From Fluviicola sp. (lineage in GTDB: Bacteria; Bacteroidota; Bacteroidia; Flavobacteriales_D; Crocinitomicaceae), in NCBI GenBank assembly GCA_002734065.2, contig NVXU02000022.1, positions 1 through 60,780 on the forward strand: a stretch of DNA of 60,780 bases, read 5' to 3'. Shown here piece after piece: positions 826 through 60,780 of the stretch. The notes below the pieces were generated by a model. The model searched no databases and had not been told where the DNA came from. It worked only from the letters and a program-made list of their open reading frames with translations. Every line of letters starts with the position of its first letter. Position 1 is the stretch's first letter. A program made the position numbers and the translations under genes.

Positions 826-833
826 TATCTTTA
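826..833 (+). promoter_or_regulatory. Bacteroidota -7 box TATCTTTA
   Basis: TATCTTTA fits the TAnnTTTG-like -7 element used by the Bacteroidota primary sigma factor. It ends four bases before the ATG at 838, so the radical SAM mRNA is probably leaderless or nearly so. No clear TTG is seen at -33. Confidence 0.5.
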
Positions 834-837
834 CAAT

Positions 838-1722
838 ATGCTAGGATTTCCTATACAATATAATGAACCTTTATTTCGTCCTCCGAGCGAAGGAAGGTCA
901 TTAATTATTCAAATTACACTTGGCTGTTCATGGAACAAATGCTCGTTCTGCGAAATGTATACCTCAAAACAGTTTACTGCAAGAAAACAAGAAGATATTT
1001 TTGCGGATATCGATGCTTTTAAATTACATTCGAATTCCATCCAGAAAGTATTTTTGGCAGATGGCGATCCTTTGGTGTTGTCAAATAAGCGCTTAATCCC
1101 GATTCTTAAGAAACTAAATGAAACTTTCCCGAAATTACGTAGAATCTCTACCTACGCCTCGCCTTCTAATTTGATGAGAAAATCGATAGATGAATTAAAA
1201 GAGCTTAAAGAGAATGGGTTGGTATTATTGTATGTTGGAATTGAATCAGGTGATTCTGAGGTGTTAGAGGCAATACAAAAAGGTGAAACTTACCAAACTA
1301 CAGTTGACGGTTTAAATAAATCCAAAGCTGCTGGAATGGATGCTTCAGTTATGATTATTAATGGAGTTGGAGGGAAATTATTAACAGAACAACATGCCAT
1401 AAACTCTGCAAAAGTACTGAACGCAACTCAACCTAAATTTGCATCGACGCTTGTTCTTACTGCTCACAAAGGATTGGATCATTATAAAAACAGATATTTG
1501 GGTGAGTTTATTGAGTTAGAAGAATCTGAATTATTTGAAGAAATGCATCTTTTTCTTTCACACTTGGAGTTAGAAGAAACAATATTTAGAAGTGATCACG
1601 CTTCCAACAGTCTAGTTCTTAAAGGAATTATTGGCAGAGATAAAAGTAGTATGCTTGCTCAAATAGAAAAGGCAATACAAGAAGGTGCTGGCAATAGGAA
1701 GCGACAGTACCATGGGTGTTAG
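838..1722 (+). CDS. Radical SAM protein with a CX4CX2C cluster motif
   Basis: The 294-residue protein starts with a radical SAM core. The iron-sulfur ligands are in TLGCSWNKCSFCEMY (Cys30, Cys35, Cys38), spaced CX4CX2C rather than the classic CX3CX2C. The GESGD-like step appears as YVGIESGDSEVLEAI, typical of the Elp3/MiaB/NifB-like fold. I recall homologues with the same GCSHNKC-type motif annotated only as radical SAM protein; the reaction is unknown. The protein lacks an obvious extra C-terminal cluster domain. The ATG lies immediately after a promoter-like box and faces the MOSC gene. Confidence 0.85.
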   Translation: MLGFPIQYNEPLFRPPSEGRSLIIQITLGCSWNKCSFCEMYTSKQFTARKQEDIFADIDAFKLHSNSIQKVFLADGDPLVLSNKRLIPILKKLNETFPKLRRISTYASPSNLMRKSIDELKELKENGLVLLYVGIESGDSEVLEAIQKGETYQTTVDGLNKSKAAGMDASVMIINGVGGKLLTEQHAINSAKVLNATQPKFASTLVLTAHKGLDHYKNRYLGEFIELEESELFEEMHLFLSHLELEETIFRSDHASNSLVLKGIIGRDKSSMLAQIEKAIQEGAGNRKRQYHGC

Positions 1723-1753
1723 AAGGTTGAAATGAATTCCTAGAAAAGGTAAA

Positions 1754-1903
1754 ATGGCTAAGCAAAAGAATACTGTAAATAAGAAAAAGCACACCAAATT
1801 GCTCAATCAGAAAAAAACAAGAAAGCAATCTGCGAAAGAATCCAATCGACTAAAGATAAAGGAAATGAATCGGAAAATTAACGAATTCAAGAAAGAGGAT
1901 TAA
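1754..1903 (+). CDS. Small highly basic protein (49 aa), hypothetical
   Basis: An open frame of 49 codons starts with ATG at 1754 and ends with TAA at 1901-1903. It begins MAKQKNTVNKKKHTKLLNQK and is dominated by Lys, Arg, Asn and Gln with no hydrophobic stretch. Such composition suggests a nucleic-acid-associated or disordered protein. It follows the radical SAM gene by 31 bases on the same strand, with AAAAGGT just upstream of the ATG as a weak ribosome-binding site. It overlaps the stop of the convergent minus-strand gene by four bases. It could be a chance AT-rich frame; the clean start and operon-like position favour a real gene. Confidence 0.5.
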   Translation: MAKQKNTVNKKKHTKLLNQKKTRKQSAKESNRLKIKEMNRKINEFKKED

Positions 1904-2460
1904 TCATACTCATACCCCTTCAATTCATCCTCATTAACAGCCAAACCAAGCCCCAAAACGATTCTGTTAACAAAATTAAAGTAGGAAATAACCAAGGTTG
2001 CATCCAGAATTGCTCGGTCAGACAGTCCTAATTTCTTAAGAGATTCAACCGACTTTTTATTACCGTGGTTAGGATTAATCGTTAATTCTTTAGCAAAAGC
2101 ACAAAGTTGAGCATCCGTTTCAGAAAGTTCAAGTTCTAAGTAATTCTCTTTCAACTGATTTGTTTTGGCATCGTCTTTCCAGTAGTGATTGACCGCTTCT
2201 GCATGATGCATTTGACAATACTCGCAATCATTGGCTTTGGAAACCACAACCGCCATCATTTCTCTTTGAACACGCTTTAACGGTGATTTCCCAAACATAA
2301 TCGTCATGTATAAGTCCATGTGATTGACAATGCTCTTAGGATTTAAACTCTGAATCGTATGAACGTCTGCCAATTTACCTCTCGTTTTCACGAGGTTGTC
2401 GTAAATGTCTTTTAAATCGTCTGTTGCATTTTCATGCTCTATTACCTCAATGTATGCCAT
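1900..2460 (-). CDS. Carboxymuconolactone decarboxylase / AhpD-like peroxidase-related enzyme
   Basis: The 186-residue protein carries the AhpD-fold motif CEYCQMHHAEAV, with Cys79 and Cys82 as the redox pair and the following histidines in the usual proton-relay position. AhpD-like proteins act as alkylhydroperoxidases or thiol-disulfide relays. Length and the N-terminal IEVIEHENATDDLKDIYD segment resemble the 'uncharacterized peroxidase-related enzyme' group. There is no signal peptide, so it is cytoplasmic. It ends against the small basic gene and starts upstream of a repeat-filled gap. Substrate is not predictable. Confidence 0.85.
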   Translation of the reverse strand: MAYIEVIEHENATDDLKDIYDNLVKTRGKLADVHTIQSLNPKSIVNHMDLYMTIMFGKSPLKRVQREMMAVVVSKANDCEYCQMHHAEAVNHYWKDDAKTNQLKENYLELELSETDAQLCAFAKELTINPNHGNKKSVESLKKLGLSDRAILDATLVISYFNFVNRIVLGLGLAVNEDELKGYEYD

Positions 2461-4194: not shown

Positions 4195-4842
4195 ATGACG
4201 TGTGCACATTGCTGTGGAGCAGAATCCATTTTTGACAAAAAAGAAGCGAAAAAGAACTTAAAATCTTACCGCAAAAAAGGTCCAAATAAGACGACGAAAA
4301 TTTTGATAAATGCGCTTGTGAAAGAGAATGTAAAGAATTTATCACTGCTTGACATTGGAGGAGGAATTGGAGTAATTCAACATGAATTGTTAAAAAAAGG
4401 TGCTTCAAAAACGACTGATATCGATGCTTCTGCTGCCTACATCGATGTGGTAAAAGAGATAATGAACAACAATAAGACTGAAGATAAAATGAATTTCATT
4501 CATGGAGATTTTGTTGATGTCAGCGAGTCGATAGAGGCACACGATATAGTCACCTTGGAAAGAGTTGTTTGTTGTTACCCAGATGCAAAGGCACTTATCA
4601 ATGAGTCAACTTCCAAGGCTAAGAAATATTATGCATTTGTTTATCCAATGGATACATTTTTGTCAAGAATGCTGAATAAACTATTGCGTTTTTACCTTTT
4701 TCTCAAAAGAAATCCGTTTAGAACATTTATTCATTCTGAAAAAATGATGAATGAGTTGATTCTAAGCAAAAATTTCGAAAATATTTTTCATGGAAAGGCA
4801 TTTCCTTGGAGAATTAGTGTTTATAGGAGAATTGACGGATAA
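4195..4842 (+). CDS. Class I SAM-dependent methyltransferase
   Basis: The 215-residue protein has the SAM-binding motif I LLDIGGGIGVIQHELL (about residues 50-65), the acidic residue of motif II in TDIDASAAYI, and motif IV in HDIVTLERVVCCYPD. The N-terminus MTCAHCCGAESIFD has three cysteines in eight residues, unusual for a plain methyltransferase. The fold resembles small-molecule or magnesium-protoporphyrin-type methyltransferases, but the substrate cannot be named. A perfect 14-bp inverted repeat straddles its stop codon. Confidence 0.8.
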   Translation: MTCAHCCGAESIFDKKEAKKNLKSYRKKGPNKTTKILINALVKENVKNLSLLDIGGGIGVIQHELLKKGASKTTDIDASAAYIDVVKEIMNNNKTEDKMNFIHGDFVDVSESIEAHDIVTLERVVCCYPDAKALINESTSKAKKYYAFVYPMDTFLSRMLNKLLRFYLFLKRNPFRTFIHSEKMMNELILSKNFENIFHGKAFPWRISVYRRIDG

Positions 4843-4868
4843 AAAATACTCCCCATCCGTCAATTCTC
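4827..4868. terminator. Hairpin across the methyltransferase stop codon
   Basis: GAGAATTGACGGAT (4827-4840) is perfectly repeated in inverse at 4855-4868, loop 14 bases. The left arm is the last codons of the methyltransferase and the loop contains its TAA. The genes on each side converge, so it could stop transcription or stabilise 3' ends in both directions. There is no U-tract after the stem, so an intrinsic terminator is not certain. Confidence 0.5.
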
Positions 4869-4903
4869 GCAATTCATTTACTAAACCTTGTAAAATAAAC
4901 ATT

Positions 4904-7234
4904 CTAAAACCAAAACTTATAAGTAACATCTGGGAAAAAACCTCGTTGATAGGTTGCTCCTAACTGGTTCGTTGCTGCATTGTATCCATACAGAAAAATG
5001 TTCTTTTGATTGGTCACATTCTGTAAGTCAATGGAGAACAAGTGAGACACTTTTTTCTGATCCATTCTGAAAGTAATTTTAAAATCTGTTCTAAAATAAG
5101 CTGGATTTTGCTCAGAATAAGCTCTAGAATCAATATAAACAGCTGAACCAATTTGCTGTGATGCTACTAAATCAATAGGCGTGTACCTTCTGCCACCAGC
5201 ATACGTTACTTTTATATCAAAGCCTAAGGTTACTTTCTTAGCAATCTTAAATTCTTTTCCTCCTAAAGCGTTGAAAACGTAGTTAGTATTAAAAGCTGTA
5301 TTTCTCCAAACCTTATCTGCTCCTTGGTACCTAGATTCAAAAACCGATGCGGTTACAAGCATGTAAAAACCTTTGGAATAGAATTTTTCCAAGGTCAATT
5401 CACCACCATAATTCATCCCAAGACCTTTGTTTGTTAATCCTGTTCTAGCAACCAAATTGAAGTCGGCTCCTTGATTCAATTCTGAAAATGAACTTGAGAA
5501 CGTATCAATTGGTGCGTTGTAGATGTATTGGTAGTAAACCTCTGACTTCAAGTGCATCCCTTTGCCTAAGTCTAAATCATGACCAATAACAGAATGTATG
5601 GCACGTGTAAAATCTAAATTGATATTGGGCGTTGTACTTTGACCATCAACTATTTCTTCAAAAAAGTAAGCTGGCACTCGCTGCATTTGGCTGTGCATAC
5701 TTGCTCCAAGACTTAAGGTTTGCTTCTCTGACATTTTATATTTCAGTCCAAGTCTAGGTTCTAAACTATTCGACCCATTCATGAGCAAGTGCTGAGAATG
5801 CAAGCCTGCATTAAGTGTTAACAGATTGGTGAAACGGTGCTGCCACATAATATATGACTGAACCAAACTCGCTCCTCCTTGAAAGTCAGTAGTTTTATTG
5901 TAGCCATTGCCCACCTTAACAGAATCTACGATGTCAAACATAAAATAATCATAAATTGCGCCCACGGTTACTGTATTCTTCGCGTTTACTTTATGATTTA
6001 TTTTGTAATTGGCCGAATATTTGGTTTGGTTATTTGCTTCAGCAAAATATCTCAAATAATTATTATTTTGCAAGGTGTCAATTGTTATACCACTGTTCTG
6101 TGTACTTGCAGAAATGACCAGTTTTGACAAAGTGTTTTTATTGAAAAAATAGCGATGAGACACGCCAACAATCCCTGTACTTGAACTTACATCTGATTTT
6201 GTGTTTGGCAAAAAGAAGAGGTTACCTGTCTCAGTTGAATCTGTTATTGAAGAAATAGAACTGATTCCACCAATAGCAAAAATTGAAAAACGTCCCGCTT
6301 TTTTAGTAGGGAAGTCTAACTTCAAGGTCAAATCTTGATATTCGGGAATAGCAAAACCCGTACCCAAGTCGATTCCTAATGCACTAATAACACCCAATGT
6401 GGAGTATCTGTAATTAAGAACATACGATGCTCTTTTTCCTTTTACAAAAGGACCTTCTGCTCCGAATTCAAATCCATTGAATCCAACTTGTGCGATGTAT
6501 TCTCTCTTGGAATGATTTCCATTTCTTAATTGCAAATCAAAAACACCTGATAGAGCATTTCCATAATCCGCACTCCAGGCACTGGTCATGAAGTCAGAAT
6601 TGGCAAGGTTATTAATATTCAACATACTTACAGGACCGCCTGTAGTACCTAAAGATGAAAAATGATTGGGACTTGGGATATCAATCCCTTCCATTCTCCA
6701 AAGAACACCAGAAGGCGAGTTCCCTCTAATCACAATGTCATTTCTTGCGTCATTAGCACCACTTACACCGGCAAAATTTTGCGCCATTCTTGCAGGATCT
6801 TGCAACGAGCCAGCATATTTTGCAACATCATCTATTGAAATTGAACGCGTGCTGACAGTGGCCATTTTATTAACGATTTCGCCATTCTCATTACCCCCTT
6901 TCACAACAACCTCTTCCAAGTCGGTAATCCGCTCTTCTAAAATTACTTTTACATCTAACTCCTTCCCTGCAATAACCATTAGGTTTGGTAAAGTAAGGTC
7001 TTCATAGCCAGAATACGAGATCGTTATCATTTGCCTTCCTAACGGAAGATTCTCTAAACGGAATTCTCCATAAATATCCGTCAATGTTCTAATTATAGTG
7101 TCACTTGACGCAAAGACAACCTTTGCTCCAGGTATAGTTGCTTGCGATTGCTTGTCTATTACAACCCCTTTAATTGTTTGAGAAAAACTGCTATGCGCAA
7201 GAATTAGTATTGTTAGTAAAATGATTTGTTTCAT
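4904..7234 (-). CDS. TonB-dependent outer-membrane receptor with carboxypeptidase-regulatory-like N-terminal domain
   Basis: Translated from ATG at 7234 it is 776 residues. A longer reading to 7294 exists, but the signal peptide MKQIILLTILILAHSSFSQ argues for 7234. After the signal comes a CarboxypepD_reg-like domain (about 20-105, IKGVVIDKQSQATIPGAKV), then a plug domain (around 125-235, including NDIVIRGNSPSGVLWRMEGI), then a beta-barrel ending in YKFWF with a C-terminal aromatic residue. It should sit in the outer membrane and import an unknown ligand using TonB energy. It lies 98 bases downstream of a membrane LytTR regulator gene on the same strand. No SusD-like partner is adjacent, so this is not a classic polysaccharide-utilisation pair. 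Confidence 0.9.
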   Translation of the reverse strand: MKQIILLTILILAHSSFSQTIKGVVIDKQSQATIPGAKVVFASSDTIIRTLTDIYGEFRLENLPLGRQMITISYSGYEDLTLPNLMVIAGKELDVKVILEERITDLEEVVVKGGNENGEIVNKMATVSTRSISIDDVAKYAGSLQDPARMAQNFAGVSGANDARNDIVIRGNSPSGVLWRMEGIDIPSPNHFSSLGTTGGPVSMLNINNLANSDFMTSAWSADYGNALSGVFDLQLRNGNHSKREYIAQVGFNGFEFGAEGPFVKGKRASYVLNYRYSTLGVISALGIDLGTGFAIPEYQDLTLKLDFPTKKAGRFSIFAIGGISSISSITDSTETGNLFFLPNTKSDVSSSTGIVGVSHRYFFNKNTLSKLVISASTQNSGITIDTLQNNNYLRYFAEANNQTKYSANYKINHKVNAKNTVTVGAIYDYFMFDIVDSVKVGNGYNKTTDFQGGASLVQSYIMWQHRFTNLLTLNAGLHSQHLLMNGSNSLEPRLGLKYKMSEKQTLSLGASMHSQMQRVPAYFFEEIVDGQSTTPNINLDFTRAIHSVIGHDLDLGKGMHLKSEVYYQYIYNAPIDTFSSSFSELNQGADFNLVARTGLTNKGLGMNYGGELTLEKFYSKGFYMLVTASVFESRYQGADKVWRNTAFNTNYVFNALGGKEFKIAKKVTLGFDIKVTYAGGRRYTPIDLVASQQIGSAVYIDSRAYSEQNPAYFRTDFKITFRMDQKKVSHLFSIDLQNVTNQKNIFLYGYNAATNQLGATYQRGFFPDVTYKFWF

Positions 7235-7332
7235 ATTCTTTTTTTGAGCAAATCTATATTGGACAATGCAAAGTTTCAGCCAATATTGATGCAATTGGTA
7301 TGAAATGACACTGTTTTGTTCTGAGTTGGCGG

Positions 7333-8211
7333 TTATTTTTTAATCTTCTCATTAAATTCTTTGAACTTAGCTCTAGAGACAGGTACATTTATATCCAGCC
7401 CATCAAAAAATAGTTGATAATTCCTAGCATCCCCTTTTGTGAATTTAATGTTGTGCAAATTTACGATATAAGAACGATGCGTCTTAAAAACAAACTCGAA
7501 CTTATTTAATTTATCTTCTAAAAATGAGAGAGATGCCCGGTAAACGTTCTTTTCTACGGAAGATTCGTTGCTTGTGTAAATTTCAACGTAATTGCCTTCA
7601 GACTTAATGAACAACAACTTATTTAGGTTGAAATGAATAGGTTCATTCTTATTCTCAGATGAAAAAGACATTTCGTGGTTATCTTCTTTATCATGTGAAA
7701 TCACTTTACTCAGTAGCTGATTATGCTCTTGTGTTTGTAGTAAATTCTGTTTTAATCTAACTGTATAATCAACCCAAGTAAGAAAAAATGTTGGAAGCAA
7801 GCCTAGAATAATAACTTTTATGAATAAATGAGTGATGAAGTCAAAGGAAAAAAATGTTTTTGGGTTTATTGAAATTAATAATATGAAAATATAGTTGAGC
7901 AAGGTAATTGTAAACAGGAGTAATGAGATTATAAAAAACTGCCTAGAAATCGTCCAATTTTCTTTCTTGCTTTCAGAATAAAAATAGTTGGTTACAACTC
8001 CAAAAACAAGGTGAATGCTTATAGAAGTTATGACACCATAACTAACTGCACGAATTAATATTGATAGAGGCAATACTTGAGTAGGAACACTGTCTATAAC
8101 AGGAAGGAAATAGAAAATAAGTGTTATGAAAAGGCCAATTAGACCTGATGCAAGAGCAACCTTCTTAATTGAGAAGAGAAAAGGGTATGGTCTTCCTAAA
8201 AAATTAAACAT
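7333..8211 (-). CDS. Membrane-anchored LytTR DNA-binding regulator
   Basis: The 292-residue protein starts with four predicted membrane segments (about 15-35, 45-70, 90-115, 125-150). A linker follows and then a LytTR DNA-binding domain (about 190-290) containing KLLFIKSEGNYVEIY and VFKTHRSYIVNLHNI. It has no receiver domain, so it is a one-component regulator that may sense a membrane or envelope signal directly. It precedes the TonB receptor on the same strand and could control it; that link is inference from position only. Confidence 0.85.
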   Translation of the reverse strand: MFNFLGRPYPFLFSIKKVALASGLIGLFITLIFYFLPVIDSVPTQVLPLSILIRAVSYGVITSISIHLVFGVVTNYFYSESKKENWTISRQFFIISLLLFTITLLNYIFILLISINPKTFFSFDFITHLFIKVIILGLLPTFFLTWVDYTVRLKQNLLQTQEHNQLLSKVISHDKEDNHEMSFSSENKNEPIHFNLNKLLFIKSEGNYVEIYTSNESSVEKNVYRASLSFLEDKLNKFEFVFKTHRSYIVNLHNIKFTKGDARNYQLFFDGLDINVPVSRAKFKEFNEKIKK

Positions 8212-22719: not shown

Positions 22720-24639
22720 ATGGATAAGAATACCATCATCGGACTCGTAGTAATTGGATTAATACTGTCCGTATTTACCATCTTTAACAAGCCTTCTGAA
22801 GAAGAAATTAAAGAACGTCAAGCGAAGATTGAGCAAGAACAACGGAACATGGCAGCTGCAGATTCTTTGCAAAATATAGAGCAAGGAATAGAGAGCAAGA
22901 GTACGGAGCAAGACGCAGTACAAAGTGTAACACAAGACACGAATGAGGTTAATTCTAATTTAAGTAATACTACTCAAAATAGTGTAAAAGAAGAAGTTAA
23001 AGGAAAATTAATTCGAATAGAAAATGAAAAATTAATCATTGATTTTGACACAAAAGGCGGGCAAATAGCGGCAGTAAGATTAAAAGAATTTGAAAGCTAC
23101 CACAATTACGCAAAGAATGATGGCATCATAGAGCCTTTGGTTTTCTTCAAGAAAGGAGACGCAACAAACGGTATTGAATTTCCTTACAATGGTGGTGTTC
23201 TGAACACGGCAAATGAGTTGTTTTCTGTAAAATCACAGAACCAAGACAGAATCGTTTTTGAACTAAAAAAAGAGGGAAACCAAGTCATTGAGTTTGTTTA
23301 CCAGTTCAAAAAAGACGCTTACGACATTGATTACACCGTCAACATGCGCGGATTCTCGGGTGCAGTAACTCCACAGAACGTAATGTTTAACTGGAATGCT
23401 TCTTTGAGAAAGACAGAACGCTTGTTCAGTGAGCAAAGACGAGTTTCTACGGTTTGCTTTAAGTATCAAGAAGAAGGTTTCTCTTGGTTGAGCGAAATGG
23501 GAACCAAAGAAGAAATTGCCGAAGACAAATTGGATTGGGTAAGTTTCAAGCAAAGCTATTTCTCTTCATTCATCAATCCAGAGAATGGCTTTGCAAAGCA
23601 AGGTTCAAAACTAAACGTAGTGCAATACGAAAAAGGAGATGCCAAAGAATGGAGTCACTTAAAAGATTTTAAAGCATTGGTTAACTTAAACATTGGCAAT
23701 GTTGATAACGGTTCTGTAACTATGAATTGGTTCTTCGGACCGAATGATTACAAAACATTAACCTCTTACGATGATGATTACGATGATGTCTTGAATTACG
23801 GTTGGGGCTTGTTTCGTTGGATTAACCTTTATGCTGTTCAACCTGTTTTCAATTTACTAAAATCAACAGGAATGGGAATGGGAATTGCTATTCTTTTACT
23901 AACCTTGATTATCAAGTTTGCGTTAATGCCTGTTCAGTGGAAAATGTACGTTTCTTCTGCTAAAATGAGAATTATTAAGCCTCAAGTTGATGAATTGAAC
24001 GAAAAATACCCAGAAAAGTCTGACGCACTAAAAAAACAACAGGAAATGATGGCCTTGTACCGAGAGTCTGGTGCCAGTCCATTGGCAGGTTGTCTCCCGA
24101 TGCTGATTCAGATGCCGATATTACTTGCGGTATTCCGATTTTTCCCTTCTACATTTGATTTACGTCAACGATCATTCTTATGGGCAGAAGATTTATCTTC
24201 TTACGATTCTATCTACGATTTAGGCTTCAATATTTGGCCCTATGGAGATCACGTTTCCTTGTTTACTTTATTAATGGCAGGTACTACGTTTATCTATCAG
24301 ATGTTAAACAGTAGCAACATGCAAACGCCTCAACAACCGGGAATGCCGAACATGAAAATTATCATGTACTTCTTCCCTTTTATGATGATTTTCTTCTTCA
24401 ATAACTATTCTTCTGGTTTAAGTTATTACTATTTCATTTCTACCTTGGTTTCAATCTTAATCATGGTATTAATCAAAAAATTCTTTGTTGATGAGGACAA
24501 GTTGAAATTGAAAATGGCCAACAGAAAAGCGGCAGCACAAGCAAATCCTAAGAAAAAGAAAGGAAAGTCTAAGTTTCAAGAACGTTTGGAATTGATGCAG
24601 AAAAAGCAACAAGAGCAAATGAAGAATAAGAAGAAGTAA
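22720..24639 (+). CDS. yidC: Membrane protein insertase YidC
   Basis: The 639-residue protein has an N-terminal membrane anchor (TIIGLVVIGLILSVFTIF, 4-21), a periplasmic beta-sandwich domain (about 95-350), and the conserved insertase core (about 380-590) with MPVQWKMYVSSAKMR, GASPLAGCLPMLIQMPILLAVFRFF and NYSSGLSYYYFISTLVS. The cytoplasmic tail is Lys-rich (KKKKGKSKF... KNKKK), which can bind ribosomes. YidC inserts proteins into the inner membrane alone or with Sec. It probably shares a transcript with pyrG. Confidence 0.98.
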   Translation: MDKNTIIGLVVIGLILSVFTIFNKPSEEEIKERQAKIEQEQRNMAAADSLQNIEQGIESKSTEQDAVQSVTQDTNEVNSNLSNTTQNSVKEEVKGKLIRIENEKLIIDFDTKGGQIAAVRLKEFESYHNYAKNDGIIEPLVFFKKGDATNGIEFPYNGGVLNTANELFSVKSQNQDRIVFELKKEGNQVIEFVYQFKKDAYDIDYTVNMRGFSGAVTPQNVMFNWNASLRKTERLFSEQRRVSTVCFKYQEEGFSWLSEMGTKEEIAEDKLDWVSFKQSYFSSFINPENGFAKQGSKLNVVQYEKGDAKEWSHLKDFKALVNLNIGNVDNGSVTMNWFFGPNDYKTLTSYDDDYDDVLNYGWGLFRWINLYAVQPVFNLLKSTGMGMGIAILLLTLIIKFALMPVQWKMYVSSAKMRIIKPQVDELNEKYPEKSDALKKQQEMMALYRESGASPLAGCLPMLIQMPILLAVFRFFPSTFDLRQRSFLWAEDLSSYDSIYDLGFNIWPYGDHVSLFTLLMAGTTFIYQMLNSSNMQTPQQPGMPNMKIIMYFFPFMMIFFFNNYSSGLSYYYFISTLVSILIMVLIKKFFVDEDKLKLKMANRKAAAQANPKKKKGKSKFQERLELMQKKQQEQMKNKKK

Positions 24640-24643
24640 GTTT

Positions 24644-24691
24644 GGAGTATTGGAGCTTTGGAGTGTTAGAGTTTTAGATTATTGGAGGTTC
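24644..24691. repeat. Octamer array after yidC
   Basis: Six 8-base units: ggagtatt, ggagcttt, ggagtgtt, agagtttt, agattatt, ggaggttc. It begins four bases after the yidC TAA, in a convergent gap. The pattern matches the arrays at 158, 298 and 51317. Confidence 0.7.
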
Positions 24692-48557: not shown

Positions 48558-49019
48558 ATGCACTTAGAATGGCAAATTAAACATTACTCAGAATTAACAC
48601 TCAACGAGTTTCACGACATCATCGCATTAAGAATCAATGTGTTTGTTGTAGAGCAGGACTGTCCTTACCCAGAGCTAGATGGCAAAGATAAAAAATGCTA
48701 CCATGTCATCTGTCGTGACGGTAAAGGAAACATTGTGGCAACGGCAAGAATTGTCCCTCCAGGAATTTCTTACGATGCCTCCCCCTCTATCGGTCGTGTT
48801 GTTATCGATGAGTCTATTAGAAAGCAAGGAATTGGTCATGAATTGATGAACAAATGTGTTGATTATTCTATCATAGAATTCGGTAACAGTACCATCACTA
48901 TTTCTGCACAAAAACACCTTGAAAAATATTACGGAGAGCATAGTTTCACTTCTACTGGGAAAGAATATTTAGAAGATGGTATTCCACATGTAGAAATGGT
49001 CTTTACTCCGAAGGACTAG
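48558..49019 (+). CDS. ElaA-type GNAT acetyltransferase
   Basis: The 153-residue protein has the ElaA-like start (WQIKHYSELTLNEFHDIIALR, RINVFVVEQDCPYPELDGKD) and the acetyl-CoA loop GRVVIDESIRKQGIGHELM (Q/R-x-x-G-x-G). Substrate unknown. Length is standard. The gene follows the carboxylase gene closely and ends just before a heptamer repeat array. Confidence 0.9.
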   Translation: MHLEWQIKHYSELTLNEFHDIIALRINVFVVEQDCPYPELDGKDKKCYHVICRDGKGNIVATARIVPPGISYDASPSIGRVVIDESIRKQGIGHELMNKCVDYSIIEFGNSTITISAQKHLEKYYGEHSFTSTGKEYLEDGIPHVEMVFTPKD

Positions 49020-49026
49020 ATGGTTT

Positions 49027-49117
49027 AGTGTGGAGTGATGAGTGTGGAGTGATGAGTGTGGAGTGATGAGTGTGGAGTGATGAGTGTGGAGTGTGGAGTG
49101 TGGAGTGTGGAGTGTGG
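49027..49117. repeat. Heptamer tandem array, 13 units
   Basis: Thirteen successive 7-base units: agtgtgg and agtgatg alternate four times, then agtgtgg five times. The alternation gives a 14-base super-unit. Reading frames through it produce LHTPHS-type peptides that are not real genes. It begins seven bases after the GNAT stop codon. Confidence 0.9.
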
Positions 49118-49241
49118 AAATAAAACAAATTCTTTCTAAGAGGACGTGGACATTGAGCAAGAAAAAGCACCGCTTTTGAAGTTACGAAATGACAGTCCGT
49201 TTCTAATAAATCTAAAAGCAAAGCGTTTCTAATAAAAAAAT
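49118..49241. repeat. TCTAA-type words upstream of the M13 gene
   Basis: The segment has ttctttctaagagg, cagtccgtttctaataaatc and taaaagcaaagcgtttctaa, the same vocabulary as the larger elements at 30884 and 45930, but without a long inverted repeat. Confidence 0.45.
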
Positions 49242-51314
49242 ATGAAAAAAATAATTCTCCCAATAGCCCTCATTTTTGCAGTTACAAGTTGCGATACAGC
49301 AAAAAATGTAACCGAAGAAATTGCGGAAACAAACGCAGAAGTCATTGAAGGTTCTAATTATAGAAATCAGACCATTGACATTGATTTCATGAACGATAGC
49401 GTTCGTCCACAACATGATTTCTTTGAGTTTGCCAACGGAACTTGGTTGCAAAACAATCCTGTGCCTCCGTCAGAATCTCGTTGGGGAAGTTTTAATGAAT
49501 TGGATGTAGCTAATAAGAAGAAATTGACAATTTTACTCGAAGAAGCATCAAAGTTGAGCACTGGAAAAGGTTCAACTAATCAAATTTTGGGAGATTATTA
49601 CCAATCCTTCTTAAACATGGAGCTTCGTAATAAATACGGTACATTTGAAATTGAAGATGAACTTTTGAGAATTGACAACATGATTTCTAAAAGTGATTTG
49701 GCAAGTACAATTGCTGAACAACATCTACTAGGTATCGGTTCTCTATTTAGCTTTGGCGTAGGGCAGAATCTCAAAGATGTTGATAATCACATCGCTTATT
49801 TTGGGCAAGGAGGAATTGGACTTCCTAATAAAGACTATTATTCTTCAGATGACAAAGAAGAAATCAAGGCAAAATATCTTTTACACATCATTGCGATATT
49901 CAAATTGGCAGGAAACAGCTCTGAAGTTGCTGAGAAAATGGCAAAAGCAGCGCTACATTTTGAAGAAGAACTAGCGTCTGTCATGATGACACCTTCAGAA
50001 TTGAGAATTCCAGAGAACACTTACAATAAATTCTCATCCAAACAATTTTTTAAGGGTGCAGGACTATTTAACATGGAGCACTACCTTTCTCACCTTGAAA
50101 TTGAAACTTTTGACTCGCTCGTTGTCAGCCAACCTAAATTTTTGGTGAAAATTGCGAAAATGGTTCGAGGAACGGATTTAGACGACTGGAAAAGTTACTT
50201 AAAATGGTCTGTTTTAAATCGTTATGCTGGGCATTTGGACGAGAAGTTTGTTAAACAGAATTTTGAATTCTACGGCAAGGTTCTGAAAGGTAAATCTGAA
50301 ATGAAACCAATCAACGCAAGAGCAATTGATGAGATAACGCACCAAGAATTTGGAGAATTACTCGGGAAAGCATTCGTTGGAAGACATTATTCGGATGTTG
50401 CTGCGCAGAAAGTAAATACGATGGTTGACAACCTTCTTTATGTTTTTAAAGAGCGAATAAATAAATTAGGATGGATGTCAGGCGACACCAAGAAACAAGC
50501 CTTGATAAAGCTAGGTGCCATTGGAAGAAAATTGGGTTATCCAGATGTTTGGGAAGATTTTAGTGGATTGAATTTTGTTGCGGACAATTACCTTCGCAAC
50601 ATCAATGAAGCAGCCTTGTATGCAAGCAAGAAAAACCTTGCAAAGCTTTACAAGCCAGTAAATAAAGATGAATGGGGAATGCCTGCGCATATGATTAATG
50701 CATATTATCATCCTCTTTTGAACGAAATTGCTTTTCCAGCAGGGATAATGCAAGCACCATTCTTCAGTGAGAATTTCGAAGATGCCGTAAATTATGGAAG
50801 AATAGGAATGGTTATCGGGCATGAATTCACGCACGGTTTTGACGACATGGGATCCAAGTTTGCGGCTGATGGTTCTTTCACTAATTGGTGGTCAACAGAT
50901 GACAGAACCGCTTTTGAAGAACGAACGGGGAAATTAGGAGCAACTTTTGAAGGTTTTTGTCCCGTTGAAGGACATTGTGTTAATTCTAGTTTGACAATGG
51001 GTGAAAATATCGCAGACCTCGGAGGGTTGACCATGGCTTACTATGCTTACACCAGAACGGATGAGTTCAAAGCAGGGATTTCTCGCAAAGGATACACACC
51101 CGCTCAACGGTTTTTCTTAGCGTATGCGCAGTTGTGGAAAATCAACTATACCGAAGAAGAATTGAAGAATAGAATTGCCAATGACCCTCATTCTCCAGGA
51201 ATGTATCGAGTGAATGGACCTTTGATGAACTGCCCCGAATTTTTTAAAGCGTTTGATGTAAAAGAAGGCGATGCAATGAGAAATGAAAGTAGTAAAGTAG
51301 CGAAGATATGGTAG
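49242..51314 (+). CDS. M13-family (neprilysin-like) zinc metallopeptidase, lipoprotein
   Basis: The 690-residue protein has a lipoprotein signal (MKKIILPIALIFAVTSC). The M13 N-terminal half contains RPQHDFFEFANGTWL; the catalytic half has NAYYHPLLNEIAFPAGIMQAP, the zinc site HEFTHGFDD (His527 to His531) and the third ligand in ENIADLGGL. The C-terminus MYRVNGPLMNCPEFFKAFDV is the conserved M13 ending. It digests oligopeptides in the envelope. All ligands are present. Confidence 0.95.
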   Translation: MKKIILPIALIFAVTSCDTAKNVTEEIAETNAEVIEGSNYRNQTIDIDFMNDSVRPQHDFFEFANGTWLQNNPVPPSESRWGSFNELDVANKKKLTILLEEASKLSTGKGSTNQILGDYYQSFLNMELRNKYGTFEIEDELLRIDNMISKSDLASTIAEQHLLGIGSLFSFGVGQNLKDVDNHIAYFGQGGIGLPNKDYYSSDDKEEIKAKYLLHIIAIFKLAGNSSEVAEKMAKAALHFEEELASVMMTPSELRIPENTYNKFSSKQFFKGAGLFNMEHYLSHLEIETFDSLVVSQPKFLVKIAKMVRGTDLDDWKSYLKWSVLNRYAGHLDEKFVKQNFEFYGKVLKGKSEMKPINARAIDEITHQEFGELLGKAFVGRHYSDVAAQKVNTMVDNLLYVFKERINKLGWMSGDTKKQALIKLGAIGRKLGYPDVWEDFSGLNFVADNYLRNINEAALYASKKNLAKLYKPVNKDEWGMPAHMINAYYHPLLNEIAFPAGIMQAPFFSENFEDAVNYGRIGMVIGHEFTHGFDDMGSKFAADGSFTNWWSTDDRTAFEERTGKLGATFEGFCPVEGHCVNSSLTMGENIADLGGLTMAYYAYTRTDEFKAGISRKGYTPAQRFFLAYAQLWKINYTEEELKNRIANDPHSPGMYRVNGPLMNCPEFFKAFDVKEGDAMRNESSKVAKIW

Positions 51315-51316
51315 GT

Positions 51317-51364
51317 GGAGTGTTGGAGTGTTGGAGTGTTGGAGTGTTGGAGCTTTGGATGATT
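51317..51364. repeat. Octamer array after the M13 gene
   Basis: Units: ggagtgtt four times in a row, then ggagcttt and ggatgatt. It starts two bases after the M13 stop codon. An inverse-oriented array (aatgctcc twice, aacaatct, aaagctcc) lies at 51659-51690. Confidence 0.8.
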
Positions 51365-51373
51365 AGACATATT

Positions 51374-56359: not shown

Positions 56360-57574
56360 ATGGAATTTCAATTAAATACCATCGAGGAAGCTCTCGAGGA
56401 TATCAGAAACGGAAAGGTTATCATTGTTGTTGACGATGAGAACAGAGAGAACGAAGGAGATTTCTTGACGGCTGCTCGAAATGTAACACCTGAGATTATC
56501 AATTTCATGGTGACGCATGGCAGAGGTCTTGTTTGCGCGCCTATTTTAGAAAGTCGCTGCGAAGAATTAGGACTGGACATGATGGTTCAAAACAATTCTG
56601 CCGCTTACGAAACGCCATTTACGGTTTCCGTGGACCTAATCGGTCATGGTTGCACAACAGGCATCAGTGCAAGTGATCGCTCCAAAACAGTGATGGCTTT
56701 GATAGATCCTAATATAAGACCAGAAGAAATTGGAAAGCCTGGACATATTTTTCCGCTAAAAGCTAGGAAAGGTGGAGTTTTGAGAAGAGCAGGCCATACA
56801 GAAGCTGCTATCGACTTGTCAAGAATGGCAGGATTTGAACCGGCAGGTGTCATCGTTGAGATTCTCAATGAAGACGGTTCCATGGCAAGGTTACCAGAGC
56901 TCGTAGAAATCGCTAAGAAATTCGATTTAAAACTTATTTCTATCGAAGATTTAATAGAATATAGAATTAAAACAGAATCACTGATAGAGAAAATCATTGA
57001 TGTTAAAATGCCAACCAAATACGGTGATTTCGACATGTTTCTATACAAAAACACGAACACTGATGAAGAGCATCTTGCCTTAGTAAAAGGAGAATGGAAA
57101 GAAGATGAAGCTGTATTAGTACGTGTTCATTCTTCTTGTATGACAGGTGATATTTTTGGTTCTTGCCGATGCGATTGCGGTCCTCAACTGCAAAAAGCAA
57201 TGGAAATCATCGAAAAAGAAGGGAAAGGAGCGATTATCTATATGAATCAAGAAGGACGAGGCATTGGTTTGACCAATAAATTGAAAGCTTATAAATTGCA
57301 AGAGGAAGGTTACGACACACTCGAAGCAAATATCAAGTTAGGTTTCAAAGGCGATGAAAGAGATTATGGAATCGGTGCGCAAATCATTCGAGATTTAGGA
57401 ATTTCTAAAATGAAATTGATGTCTAACAATCCAACCAAAAGAACAGGATTGGTTGGTTATGGTTTAGAGATAGTGGAAAATATTGCTCTTGAAATAGAAA
57501 GTAACAAACACAATGAATTGTACCTTAAAACAAAGCGTGACAAAATGGGACATTCACTGAAATTGGGTAAATAA
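56360..57574 (+). CDS. ribBA: Bifunctional 3,4-dihydroxy-2-butanone-4-phosphate synthase / GTP cyclohydrolase II
   Basis: The 404-residue protein has RibB (1-200: [36 protein letters not shown]) and RibA (205-404: [21 protein letters not shown] with zinc-ligand cysteines, [17 protein letters not shown]). It supplies both starting compounds of riboflavin synthesis. All residues for both activities look intact. Its stop overlaps the ATG of the ABC gene by one base, suggesting one transcript. Confidence 0.96.
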
Positions 57575-58224
57575 TGCTAATCACAAAAGGAATAACGAAG
57601 GCTTACGACCAACTGCAAATCCTCAAAGGAATAGACTTAGAGATAAAAAGCGGTGAAATTGTTTCTATTGTTGGTCCTTCTGGTGCTGGAAAAACAACCT
57701 TGCTTCAAATTTTAGGAACGCTCGACACTCCTGATAAGGGAGAAGTCAGCATTGATGGTGTAAATCCTTTTTCACTGTCCAAAAAGCAACTTTCGGCATT
57801 TAGAAATCAATCCATTGGTTTTATTTTTCAATTTCATCAGTTATTGCCAGAATTTACGGCAGAAGAGAATATCATTCTCCCCGCATTAATCAAAGGTGTT
57901 TCGCAGAATGATGCCAAAAAAGAAGCGCAAAAGTTGTTAGAAATGTTAGGGCTCCAAAACAGAGCATCGCATAAGCCGAATGAATTATCCGGCGGAGAAC
58001 AACAAAGAATTGCCGTTGCAAGAGCGTTAATCAACCAGCCAAAAGTAATTTTTGCAGACGAACCTTCTGGAAATTTAGACAGTAAGAATTCTGAAGAATT
58101 ACATCAATTATTTTTCGATTTAAGAGATGAATTTAAGCAGACTTTTGTGATTGTCACGCACAATAAAGAATTGGCAAAAATGACCGATAGACAATTGGTC
58201 ATGGAGGATGGGTTGATTGTCTGA
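57574..58224 (+). CDS. ABC transporter ATPase, LolD/MacB-type
   Basis: The 216-residue ATPase has Walker A GPSGAGKT (34-41), signature [15 protein letters not shown], Walker [13 protein letters not shown], and the D-loop. The [16 protein letters not shown] stretch after the Q-loop is typical of LolD/MacB-type ATPases that drive lipoprotein release or efflux. The partner permease is not adjacent. It overlaps ribBA by one base and precedes a lipoprotein gene with its own promoter. Confidence 0.93.
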
Positions 58225-58246: not shown

Positions 58247-58888
58247 ATGAAAATTATTTATCTAATAATCATAAGTTTTCTTTTTATTTCTTGCAAAAAC
58301 GAAGAAGTAAAAGCAAAGACCAATTCCAAGCAAAAAATAGTTGAGACGATTGCCGCAGAATTAGATGCGGACTCAATTGTTAGTCAAAATAGTGAATTAT
58401 TCATTAAAGAACTTGCAAACAAAGTTCTCCTCTCTATCAAAGAGAAAGAATGGGCTAAGTTTACTTCTTACATCCACCCAACTAAGGGTGTTCGATTATC
58501 ACCTTATGTCCATATTGATACTAATTCAGGTTTTATTCTTAGGCAGAATAACTTTTTCCTTTTGCAAGAAGAAAAACAATTTTGGGGGTATTACGATGGT
58601 AGTGGTGATTCTATTACTTTAACGGTAAAAGAATATTTTAATGATTTTGTATATGACGCAGACTTCCTACATGCAGAAAAAATAAGTATCAATAACTTTT
58701 TAGGATCGGGTAACTCATTGTATAATGTCGATGAAATCTACCCCAACCTCTCTTTTGTTAATTACTACTTCTCTGGATTTGAAGCTAAATACGACGGTTT
58801 AGATTGGAAGAGCATGAGTTTATTTTTTGACAATTTAGATGGGGAATTATTTCTTGTGGCAATAGTTCATAATCAATGGACGATTTAA
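58247..58888 (+). CDS. Hypothetical lipoprotein
   Basis: The 213-residue protein has lipobox-containing signal MKIIYLIIISFLFISC, a helical linker and a globular part with EWAKFTSYIHPTKGVRLSPY, FWGYYDGSGDSITLTVKEYF and IYPNLSFVNYYFSGFEAKYD. Similar lipoproteins occur in Flavobacteriia with no known role. The stop TAA (58886-58888) is five bases before the ATG of the truncated TIGR02757 fragment, and the duplicated sequence begins on the last base of that stop. Confidence 0.8.
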   Translation: MKIIYLIIISFLFISCKNEEVKAKTNSKQKIVETIAAELDADSIVSQNSELFIKELANKVLLSIKEKEWAKFTSYIHPTKGVRLSPYVHIDTNSGFILRQNNFFLLQEEKQFWGYYDGSGDSITLTVKEYFNDFVYDADFLHAEKISINNFLGSGNSLYNVDEIYPNLSFVNYYFSGFEAKYDGLDWKSMSLFFDNLDGELFLVAIVHNQWTI

Positions 58889-59006
58889 ATCAATGACTTC
58901 TCTACAACTCAAAGAATACCTTGACTTCAAGGCCGAGCAATACAACACAAAGCAATTCATAGACACCGACCCTATTCAGTTGCCGCATCGTTTTTCTCGC
59001 AAGGAA
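58888..59006 (+). repeat. Perfect direct repeat, copy 1 (at least 119 bp)
   Basis: These 119 bases are identical to 60662-60780, which ends at the window edge, so the true repeat may be longer (up to about 59065 if it follows the gene homology). It contains the ATG and first 38 codons of the TIGR02757 gene. Confidence 0.97.
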
Positions 59007-59123
59007 GACGTCGAAATTGTTGCCTTTTTAGTGTCCACCATCGCTTGGGGAAAGAGAGCAATGACAAATCACTTTTCGCCGCCCACAACCAAATACATTA
59101 TCGAGTTTTTTCTTGTATTATGA
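58893..59123 (+). pseudogene. Truncated 5' copy of a TIGR02757/DUF2400 gene
   Basis: The frame begins MTSLQLKEYLDFKAEQYNTK and continues KEDVEIVAFLVSTIAWGKRAM, the start of the TIGR02757 (DUF2400) family. Homology ends about residue 57 (base ~59065); the remaining 19 codons run through the 3' end of the opposite-strand gene and stop at 59123. The family is normally over 240 residues, so this is a decapitated fragment left after an insertion. A complete-looking start recurs at 60667. Confidence 0.9.
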
Positions 59124-60610
59124 TACCTTACAAGTAGTTTTTTATCATAATAACTAATTTTTTTCATCGGATAGCTATCAATTGGTTCATCTAAAACAGG
59201 TTCAAACGATTCAACCTCTCCTGATTTAAGGTTTATTGTCCTTTTCGCTAAAATAATTCCATCCCAACCACCAGGCCCTGTAAGGGCCGTGTACTTATAG
59301 TTTCCTTCGTCATCAAAATTCACACTAAACTCTCTTGTATAGAGATAGAGTTTATCGTCTTTTATATTTAGATGACTCAGATTATAAGTTCTATTCATAT
59401 AATAGGGGAAAAAATTTACCCACTCAACTTTTCCCGTTGTATCAATCAAATAAATTAATTTACTGTTATTAGTTTCTCTATACGGGGCATCATTATTCAC
59501 TCCCCTTTTCATAGCGAAAACAGGGTAACTAATAATGACACTTCCGTCGTCATTAATAAGAGGTATTATTTTATTTCTAATAGCTGGAAGTTCAACTTCA
59601 TCCTCAAGGATACTCTTCCTAAATCCAGAAAGTTCATAATGTTTCTCCAAGTTATCACTTACTATTTGCTCGTACTTTATGTATTGGGAATGGCTATTAA
59701 TAATCTCTCCATCAATATTCCATCTTATATAAGCATAACCAATACCTTGGTAGATCCTTTTTTTCTCATCAATCAGCTTTGTTGTTTCAAATACACCAAG
59801 TAATTCACTCTTATCAGGAAAGAACTTAAAACTATAGCTTTTTACAAATAAATCCTCCTCAAATTCAGGGGAAATAGAAGTTATCTCTCCGTCAGTATCA
59901 ATATACAAGAACATTAGCCCTGAGTTAGAAACTGGAGGAGTCTTGAATAAGAATAGCTTTTTGCTAACAGCAGCTGTGATTTTCAATGCCAATAAAATAT
60001 TATCAGCATCATCTACAGTAACGTTTGTGAGTTTTATATTTTCCTCTCTTAAATACTCCGCTTCAACTTGCCATAACTTATTCAAATTAAAATCATATCG
60101 ACCAATAAAAGACTGCTCGGAATTATTCGCTATTAAGTAAAATCCCTTTTCACTATCATGAAACTCAATATCAGGTGAACTTAGTGCGTTAAAAATCCAA
60201 AAATCACCTAACCAAACAATTTCTCCTTCAATCTCAAAGTCAGATATTCTTCTTTTGAGAACTCCAACTTTACAAGACGTTGTAAAACTTGACTTAACAA
60301 ATCTTACTAGTTCATAAATATAATCTCCTTTTACAAAATCATCGAAAACAACTCCAAAAAACTTGCCTTCTTTTAAAACAGTAGGTTCAAATTCGATGAC
60401 TTCACCTGTTTCCATATCTAAAGTCTTAAAAAATTGAGAAAACTTCTTGTATGACCCTTCAGTTCGTGAAAAAATTAATTTCTCTTTTGAACAATAAATA
60501 AGCTCTTGATTTAAAATTTCTTCTGTCGGCTTTGACAGGGTAACTCCTTGGCAATTAGAACTAAAACTAACTCCTAAAACGAATAATAAATTAAATAAAA
60601 TATATTTCAT
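59069..60610 (-). CDS. Secreted hypothetical protein carried between the two TIGR02757 copies
   Basis: The 513-residue protein has a signal peptide (MKYILFNLLFVLGVSFSSNC; possibly a lipoprotein with Cys20). The body has many short beta segments with GEV/GEI turn motifs (METGEVIEF, DTDGEITS, LKSGEVESFEPV) as in beta-propeller proteins, but no recognised domain. The C-terminus ends YLVVGGEK with the stop codon lying at the insertion junction. No transposase, integrase or other gene travels with it. Codon use looks like the surrounding genes, so transfer from a related organism or duplication within the genome are both possible. Confidence 0.8.
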   Translation of the reverse strand: MKYILFNLLFVLGVSFSSNCQGVTLSKPTEEILNQELIYCSKEKLIFSRTEGSYKKFSQFFKTLDMETGEVIEFEPTVLKEGKFFGVVFDDFVKGDYIYELVRFVKSSFTTSCKVGVLKRRISDFEIEGEIVWLGDFWIFNALSSPDIEFHDSEKGFYLIANNSEQSFIGRYDFNLNKLWQVEAEYLREENIKLTNVTVDDADNILLALKITAAVSKKLFLFKTPPVSNSGLMFLYIDTDGEITSISPEFEEDLFVKSYSFKFFPDKSELLGVFETTKLIDEKKRIYQGIGYAYIRWNIDGEIINSHSQYIKYEQIVSDNLEKHYELSGFRKSILEDEVELPAIRNKIIPLINDDGSVIISYPVFAMKRGVNNDAPYRETNNSKLIYLIDTTGKVEWVNFFPYYMNRTYNLSHLNIKDDKLYLYTREFSVNFDDEGNYKYTALTGPGGWDGIILAKRTINLKSGEVESFEPVLDEPIDSYPMKKISYYDKKLLVRYHNTRKNSIMYLVVGGEK

Positions 60611-60661
60611 AGCTTCAAACTTAGTATTTTTTATTTAACTTCATGTTTATTATCAACAATT

Positions 60662-60780
60662 AATCAATGACTTCTCTACAACTCAAAGAATACCTTGACT
60701 TCAAGGCCGAGCAATACAACACAAAGCAATTCATAGACACCGACCCTATTCAGTTGCCGCATCGTTTTTCTCGCAAGGAA
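60662..60780 (+). repeat. Perfect direct repeat, copy 2
   Basis: Identical to 58888-59006. It reaches the end of the window, so its full length is unknown. Confidence 0.97.
60667..60780 (+). CDS. TIGR02757/DUF2400-family protein, 5' end only
   Basis: The frame is open from ATG at 60667 to the window edge and encodes the same first 38 residues as the truncated copy. This is presumably the functional gene, restored after the insertion. The family is found widely in Bacteroidota with unknown function, and I recall it adjacent to LolD-type ATPase genes, consistent with the ancestral order ABC gene, lipoprotein, TIGR02757. Confidence 0.85.
   Translation, partial: MTSLQLKEYLDFKAEQYNTKQFIDTDPIQLPHRFSRKE

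Follow-up and report, generated by a model that had tools for sequence, protein, structure and literature searches.

Bacteria acquire single genes at genomic hot spots where neither a transposase nor an integrase is in sight, and the route by which this happens is mostly guessed from comparisons. In the minimal mobile elements of Neisseria, different single cargos lie between the same conserved genes across strains, and elements that restore the end of a gene are also known. An 'insertion with long target duplication' was described in Helicobacter pylori by Nobusato et al. (2000), a work represented here by what is said of it in portions of the papers that cite it (PMC3031569, PMC1643837, PMC4978471). 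A laboratory counterpart is recorded in parts of PMC3240628: among the 60 Lac− clones of an E. coli experiment, 56 yielded the PCR product of a lacZ duplication, the duplications in 14 sequenced clones measured 109–950 bp, and the authors' explanation was one crossover involving a circle whose homologous arm had been shortened. The locus described below has the architecture of an insertion with long target duplication, a known, if little-studied, way of gaining genes. The type of scar is known; here it is very fresh and repeated, and such scars are unusually dense in this one genome.

The stretch of DNA analysed (the window, 60,780 bp) covers contig C2 from end to end; the Fluviicola sp. genome to which it belongs (G000) comprises 62 contigs and 3.49 Mb. 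The original prediction, made from the window alone, was that at least 119 identical bases flank one minus-strand gene near its right-hand end. Positions 58888–59006 and 60662–60780 indeed match at 119/119, and the contig stops at 60780. The last 99 bases of C2 are the first 99 of C52 (the sole exact end overlap when lengths of 20–399 were tested), and an exact overlap of 99 bases would be the usual leftover of a k-mer assembler between neighbouring contigs. It is this overlap that allows the full repeat to be measured, and the extension past 60780 that had been recommended brings it to 177 bp, 176/177 identical (99.4%), beginning 5 bp ahead of the ATG. The sole mismatch, at 59027, is T in the remnant and A in the complete gene. 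As anticipated, the left copy of the TIGR02757 gene is broken off after 57 codons (58893–59064) and the right copy is the start of an intact gene that, read across the C2/C52 overlap, has 252 codons and no stop; the part of it on C52 matches DUF2400 at 6e-79 and TIGR02757 at 208.7 bits, against a cut-off of 139.2. A search of the organism's own genome finds the repeat sequence only at its two window sites and at the start of C52.

The 1597 bp between the copies hold one long ORF of 513 codons, in keeping with the single-gene insertion that had been proposed; the remaining insert ORFs of at least 50 aa (54 and 65 aa) are antisense within it. The stop codon of this cargo gene is 4 bp from the left junction, and its start codon is 51 bp from the right repeat copy. 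The expectation that transposase, integrase and terminal inverted repeats would all be missing also held: the insert contains no mobility gene, its single long gene being without family match, and a repeat search of the window gave no inverted pair of at least 16 bp linking the two ends of the insert. To the left, the conserved ABC ATPase gene has TIGR02211 as its best NCBIfam model at 6.1e-81 and 271 bits, which is under the cut-off of 307.75. Elsewhere in the window there are arrays of 8-base units such as GGAGTATT (150–353, 24636–24691, 51309–51372) and a 14-base array (49013–49124), the first 701 bases of the contig match, at 88% identity, the opposite strand of positions 1–657 of contig C11, and Rfam has no match anywhere.

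Features of the insertion locus (window coordinates) and of two further cases in the same genome (coordinates of the loci named)
Feature	Position	Strand	Remark
lolD-like ABC ATPase gene	57574..58224	+	conserved left neighbour; TIGR02211 best NCBIfam model
Lipoprotein-like gene, 213 aa	58247..58888	+	upstream neighbour of TIGR02757, native by comparison with relatives; no Pfam match
Left repeat copy	58888..59064	+	TIGR02757 5′ end, 57-codon remnant
Insert, 1597 bp	59065..60661	.	bounded by repeat copies; lacking in relatives
Cargo gene, 513 aa	59069..60610	-	exported by appearance; no family
Right repeat copy, to contig end	60662..60780	+	last 58 bp and rest of TIGR02757 at C52:100–744
Catalase gene between repeats, L171 (G000:C5)	whole 336–2714; gene 826–2304	-	
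363-aa gene of no family between repeats, L206 (G000:C3)	4323–5805		

A TIGR02757 match is present in 31 of the 34 genomes of the genus. The loci of 30 relatives were compared around it, and lolD lies upstream in 27 of the 30. In three relatives within the genus (G011, G018 and G017) the lipoprotein–TIGR02757 pair is adjacent, free of cargo and with a single TIGR02757 start; these empty-site references are other species, with TIGR02757 at 85–88% amino acid identity, and in G017 lolD is outside the stretch compared. The ATCA that precedes the ATG in G011 and G018 is that of the left copy in G000. Because of the cargo-free pairs and the common ATCA, the lipoprotein–TIGR02757 junction is, on comparative grounds, native and the cargo the insert. 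Comparison of the same locus in close relatives, which had been advised as a check, has returned empty sites in three. The contrary outcome set out beforehand, an old tandem duplication, is disfavoured: the arrangement seen in G000 is absent from all relatives' loci examined. The lipoprotein gene is itself of note, its counterparts in the three empty-site genomes having only 44–48% amino acid identity, against 85–88% for the adjacent TIGR02757 and 92–94% for lolD, and it may have undergone either very fast change or replacement.

At the codon that includes position 59027, the remnant keeps Phe and the complete TIGR02757 gene has Leu. Among the 25 relatives' loci readable there (5 of the 30 are unread at the motif), 20 have Phe (TTT/TTC), 2 Tyr and 3 Leu. 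Donor and recipient are indistinguishable with just one change between the copies, and that difference gives no hint as to which copy is the donor DNA. To the left of TIGR02757, 5 of 27 relatives' loci have an interval of at least 500 bp, as do 9 of 28 to the right; the accessory genes there differ each time among the loci listed and inspected. Judged from these loci, the surroundings of TIGR02757 are a spot where accessory genes come and go. When direct repeats of at least 50 bp were sought in 111 loci (1.29 Mb, some genomes being represented twice), a partial TIGR02757 copy came to light only in G017 (L046, L089), where it comprises 79 bp of the 3′ end. In L046 (G017:C26, reverse strand 6609–7571) this copy (88.6%) comes after the complete gene, downstream of which there are also 219-bp noncoding direct repeats (96%); the opposite end of the same gene is there duplicated in another species.

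The N-terminus of the cargo protein resembles a signal peptide as judged by eye. No Pfam model matches it at or above its cut-off, no NCBIfam model does so at E 1, and Pfam is also silent on each of 12 family members. Homologues were found in 10 of 240 genomes of the family and in 13 of 399 of the order (own genome counted in both), paired in several genomes. The distant ones are full-length with 17–26% identity over the alignment, and the best relatives reach about 27%, which marks the cargo as a newcomer. The gene is complete, since its best four matches extend to residue 508–509 of 513. A pattern search of a genome-contig collection matched 35 stretches, none of them a relative, and plasmids and phages gave no match; in none of the family, order, genome-contig, plasmid and phage searches was there a donor with the cargo beside TIGR02757. 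A 24-base pattern at the cargo 3′ junction, with up to 3 mismatches allowed, has a single occurrence in the organism's own genome, so no source of the junction is seen there. A profile search against solved structures brought up nothing beyond short stretches, none significant alone (designed propellers, 26 residues), and to call the cargo a beta-propeller would be to guess. Among 447 sampled ORFs its GC content (31.8%) ranks low, at percentile 4.7, its codon usage is unremarkable (percentile 77), and the native lipoprotein gene has a GC content equal to that of the cargo; GC is a weak sign of foreign origin in this instance.

Two further cases of the same anatomy were found in the sample of G000 (1.147 Mb, window and C52 included). 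In one, the repeats that enclose a catalase gene are 248 bp long (94.8%) and consist of the final 49 codons of a gene with nitrate-reductase-gamma and cytochrome c domains, together with about 98 bp beyond its end. The 49-codon remnant retains 47/49 residues, and relatives show only partial matches (29–42%) to the target gene. In the other, a 363-aa gene is enclosed by repeats of 152 bp (90.8%) that consist of the final 34 urocanase codons and the next 48 bp. Urocanase is present in 7 of 8 relatives searched, and the 1.0–1.5 kb downstream of it in relatives has no second urocanase end, the other downstream DNA being unaligned. In each of the three clear cases the repeat has one edge close to the gene border or past it and its other edge within the gene, and the conserved target gene is intact. 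Two other arrangements in G000 were seen alongside them: a Bro-N domain gene between 71-bp repeats (87%) outside any intact gene (L176, G000:C10, 16200–17318), and a RhuM-family gene around which a repeat of about 160 bp occurs three times (84–88%; L207, G000:C3, 6732–8939).

How common such bracketing is was counted with a filter that took repeat pairs of 60–800 bp, at least 80% identical, 600–5000 bp apart, in no more than 3 copies and with at least one ORF of 90 aa between them. It passed 16 pairs in the 1.147 Mb of G000 versus 2 pairs in 1.006 Mb from 30 relatives (p = 0.003 assuming independence, though the 16 pairs fall at about 13 places). On this count, genes flanked by local direct repeats are more numerous in G000 than in the relatives, with pairs that are not fully independent. 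The limit of 3 copies excluded four G000 pairs, three loci (L056, L057, L066) were left out of the relatives' control as their genomes are sampled elsewhere, and the L046 repeats of G017 do not count as they enclose no ORF of 90 aa. A large share of what passed in G000 is intergenic and may be of another nature; one that passed, C9 23666/27160, has both copies inside intact ORFs, and this and several wholly intergenic pairs are probably not insertions. With the stricter demand that the repeat span the end of an intact gene and bracket one gene, there are 3 cases in G000 and 0 in the others, numbers too small to compare alone.

The original prediction was of a module that brings along the target gene's 5′ end and becomes integrated through homologous or site-specific exchange. 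Homologous exchange fits best; site-specific exchange finds no support, as no integrase is present and the other cases use other genes, ends and lengths. The reading favoured, and somewhat better than an even bet, is a single crossover with a circularised fragment from a close relative, bearing the cargo and a short homologous arm. The donor would be a close relative in which the cargo, divergent in orientation from TIGR02757, is next to it. A fragment with the cargo and the first 177 bp around the TIGR02757 start would have entered the cell and been circularised by end joining, to give the junction at 59064/59065. The circle would then have recombined once, presumably through RecA, within the 177 bp at the resident TIGR02757 start, and the product of that single crossover would be repeat, cargo, repeat and a complete gene. 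A reverse crossover between the 177-bp direct repeats should release a 1774-bp circle and restore the empty site. The single crossover is favoured because the repeat starts at a gene border and ends inside the gene, because the insert is absent from G011, G018 and G017 while the left junction is native, and because the two other G000 cases follow the same logic at 3′ ends. The E. coli test, in the parts of PMC3240628 that report it, gave the same type of product, which is a further reason. Failure to find a donor, with the best cargo relatives only about 27% identical, counts against this reading. ComEC is present in G000; as 10 of 14 control genomes, that of E. coli included, have it too, it says nothing on competence.

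An identical product would result if the target had been duplicated without homology, either by a 177-bp staggered break that was joined to an unrelated cargo fragment and filled in, or by cuts at different points in two replicating sister strands. These two variants, together an unlikely explanation, need no donor with cargo and TIGR02757, and none was found; selection alone would retain just the duplications that span a gene end. A stagger of 177–248 bp is long, however, and the repeat edge 5 bp before the ATG would then be a coincidence. Rather improbable is homology-facilitated illegitimate recombination, in which linear DNA recombines homologously on one side only, here with an illegitimate join that duplicated part of the target: it would give the same anatomy at both junctions, and passages of PMC3240628 know the process from three naturally competent species, but the one-sided products described there generally come with a deletion about the size of the insert, whereas no target deletion accompanies the join here and all three cases are duplications.

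The assembly itself had been named as a possible source of the perfect identity. It is very unlikely that an artefact, mixed strains or an extrachromosomal 1774-bp circle misread by a short-read assembler explains the locus: the contig does end within the repeat with the 99-base overlap typical of a k-mer assembler, and a circle plus an empty chromosome would yield the same short reads, yet both junctions are within the single contig C2, the repeat copies differ at 59027 (the copy completed on C52 having one base different), and the two further cases are within contigs and have copies 5% and 9% divergent. Just as little probability attaches to a tandem duplication of a unit of cargo and TIGR02757 start followed by loss of one cargo copy. 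That would leave the same remnant, but it takes two steps and a deletion restoring the native lipoprotein–TIGR02757 junction, which matches that of relatives, and the cargo is missing from those relatives. Scarcely credible is a non-autonomous site-specific element, moved by an integrase encoded elsewhere, that rebuilds the 5′ end of the gene it enters. Precedents exist in the gene-end-restoring elements mentioned at the outset; the insert is nonetheless without integrase, the other G000 cases involve other genes, the opposite gene end and other repeat lengths, and no relative of the cargo was located at such a site. As to a fixed attachment core, there is one insertion at the TIGR02757 site and two others at unrelated genes. 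A transposon or insertion sequence was rejected as a candidate (no transposase, no terminal inverted repeats, no short target duplication).

If the single crossover is the true route, a duplicated gene end would be the scar of a one-crossover entry, and gene-end remnants could help to find and date such gains in many genomes. The near-fresh footprint (176/177) and the older ones in one genome form a concrete, testable series. A doubtful extension is that the process is recurrent and driven by homology, with circles of a gene and an arm of 100–250 bp entering by one crossover that rebuilds the conserved gene and leaving through their own repeats. If so, cargos could pass between the cells of a population without carrying any mobility gene themselves.

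The minimal mobile elements of Neisseria resemble the flanks of TIGR02757, enlarged by at least 0.5 kb on the left or the right in the relatives' loci counted above, and differ from the present insertion in having homology on both sides and no target duplication. Cases of this kind from Bacteroidetes or Flavobacteria were not encountered in the literature searched, where TIGR02757 also goes unnamed. The E. coli lacZ duplications, as portions of PMC3240628 present them, share with this locus inserted DNA flanked by a partial gene duplication; they differ in that a laboratory plasmid and marker selection were used. In type VI effector and Rhs loci with displaced gene ends, on the account in parts of PMC5361080, a new module that enters through homology on one side leaves part of the former gene end behind, as here, but the target is replaced at its variable end, whereas TIGR02757 has been rebuilt unchanged except for one base of the repeat. 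Insertion with long target duplication, so far as the portions of the citing papers describe it, is reported mainly with restriction-modification genes, a cargo that is usual and non-essential to it; the one carried here specifies a single exported-looking protein that matches nothing in Pfam or NCBIfam. The phylum here is Bacteroidota, and the empty-site references are other species, unlike in the Helicobacter cases. The likeness is in the architecture: in both, the insert lies between long direct repeats of target DNA (177 bp, 176/177, in the present case), and in both it is recognised through comparison of close genomes, which here have a single-copy empty site.
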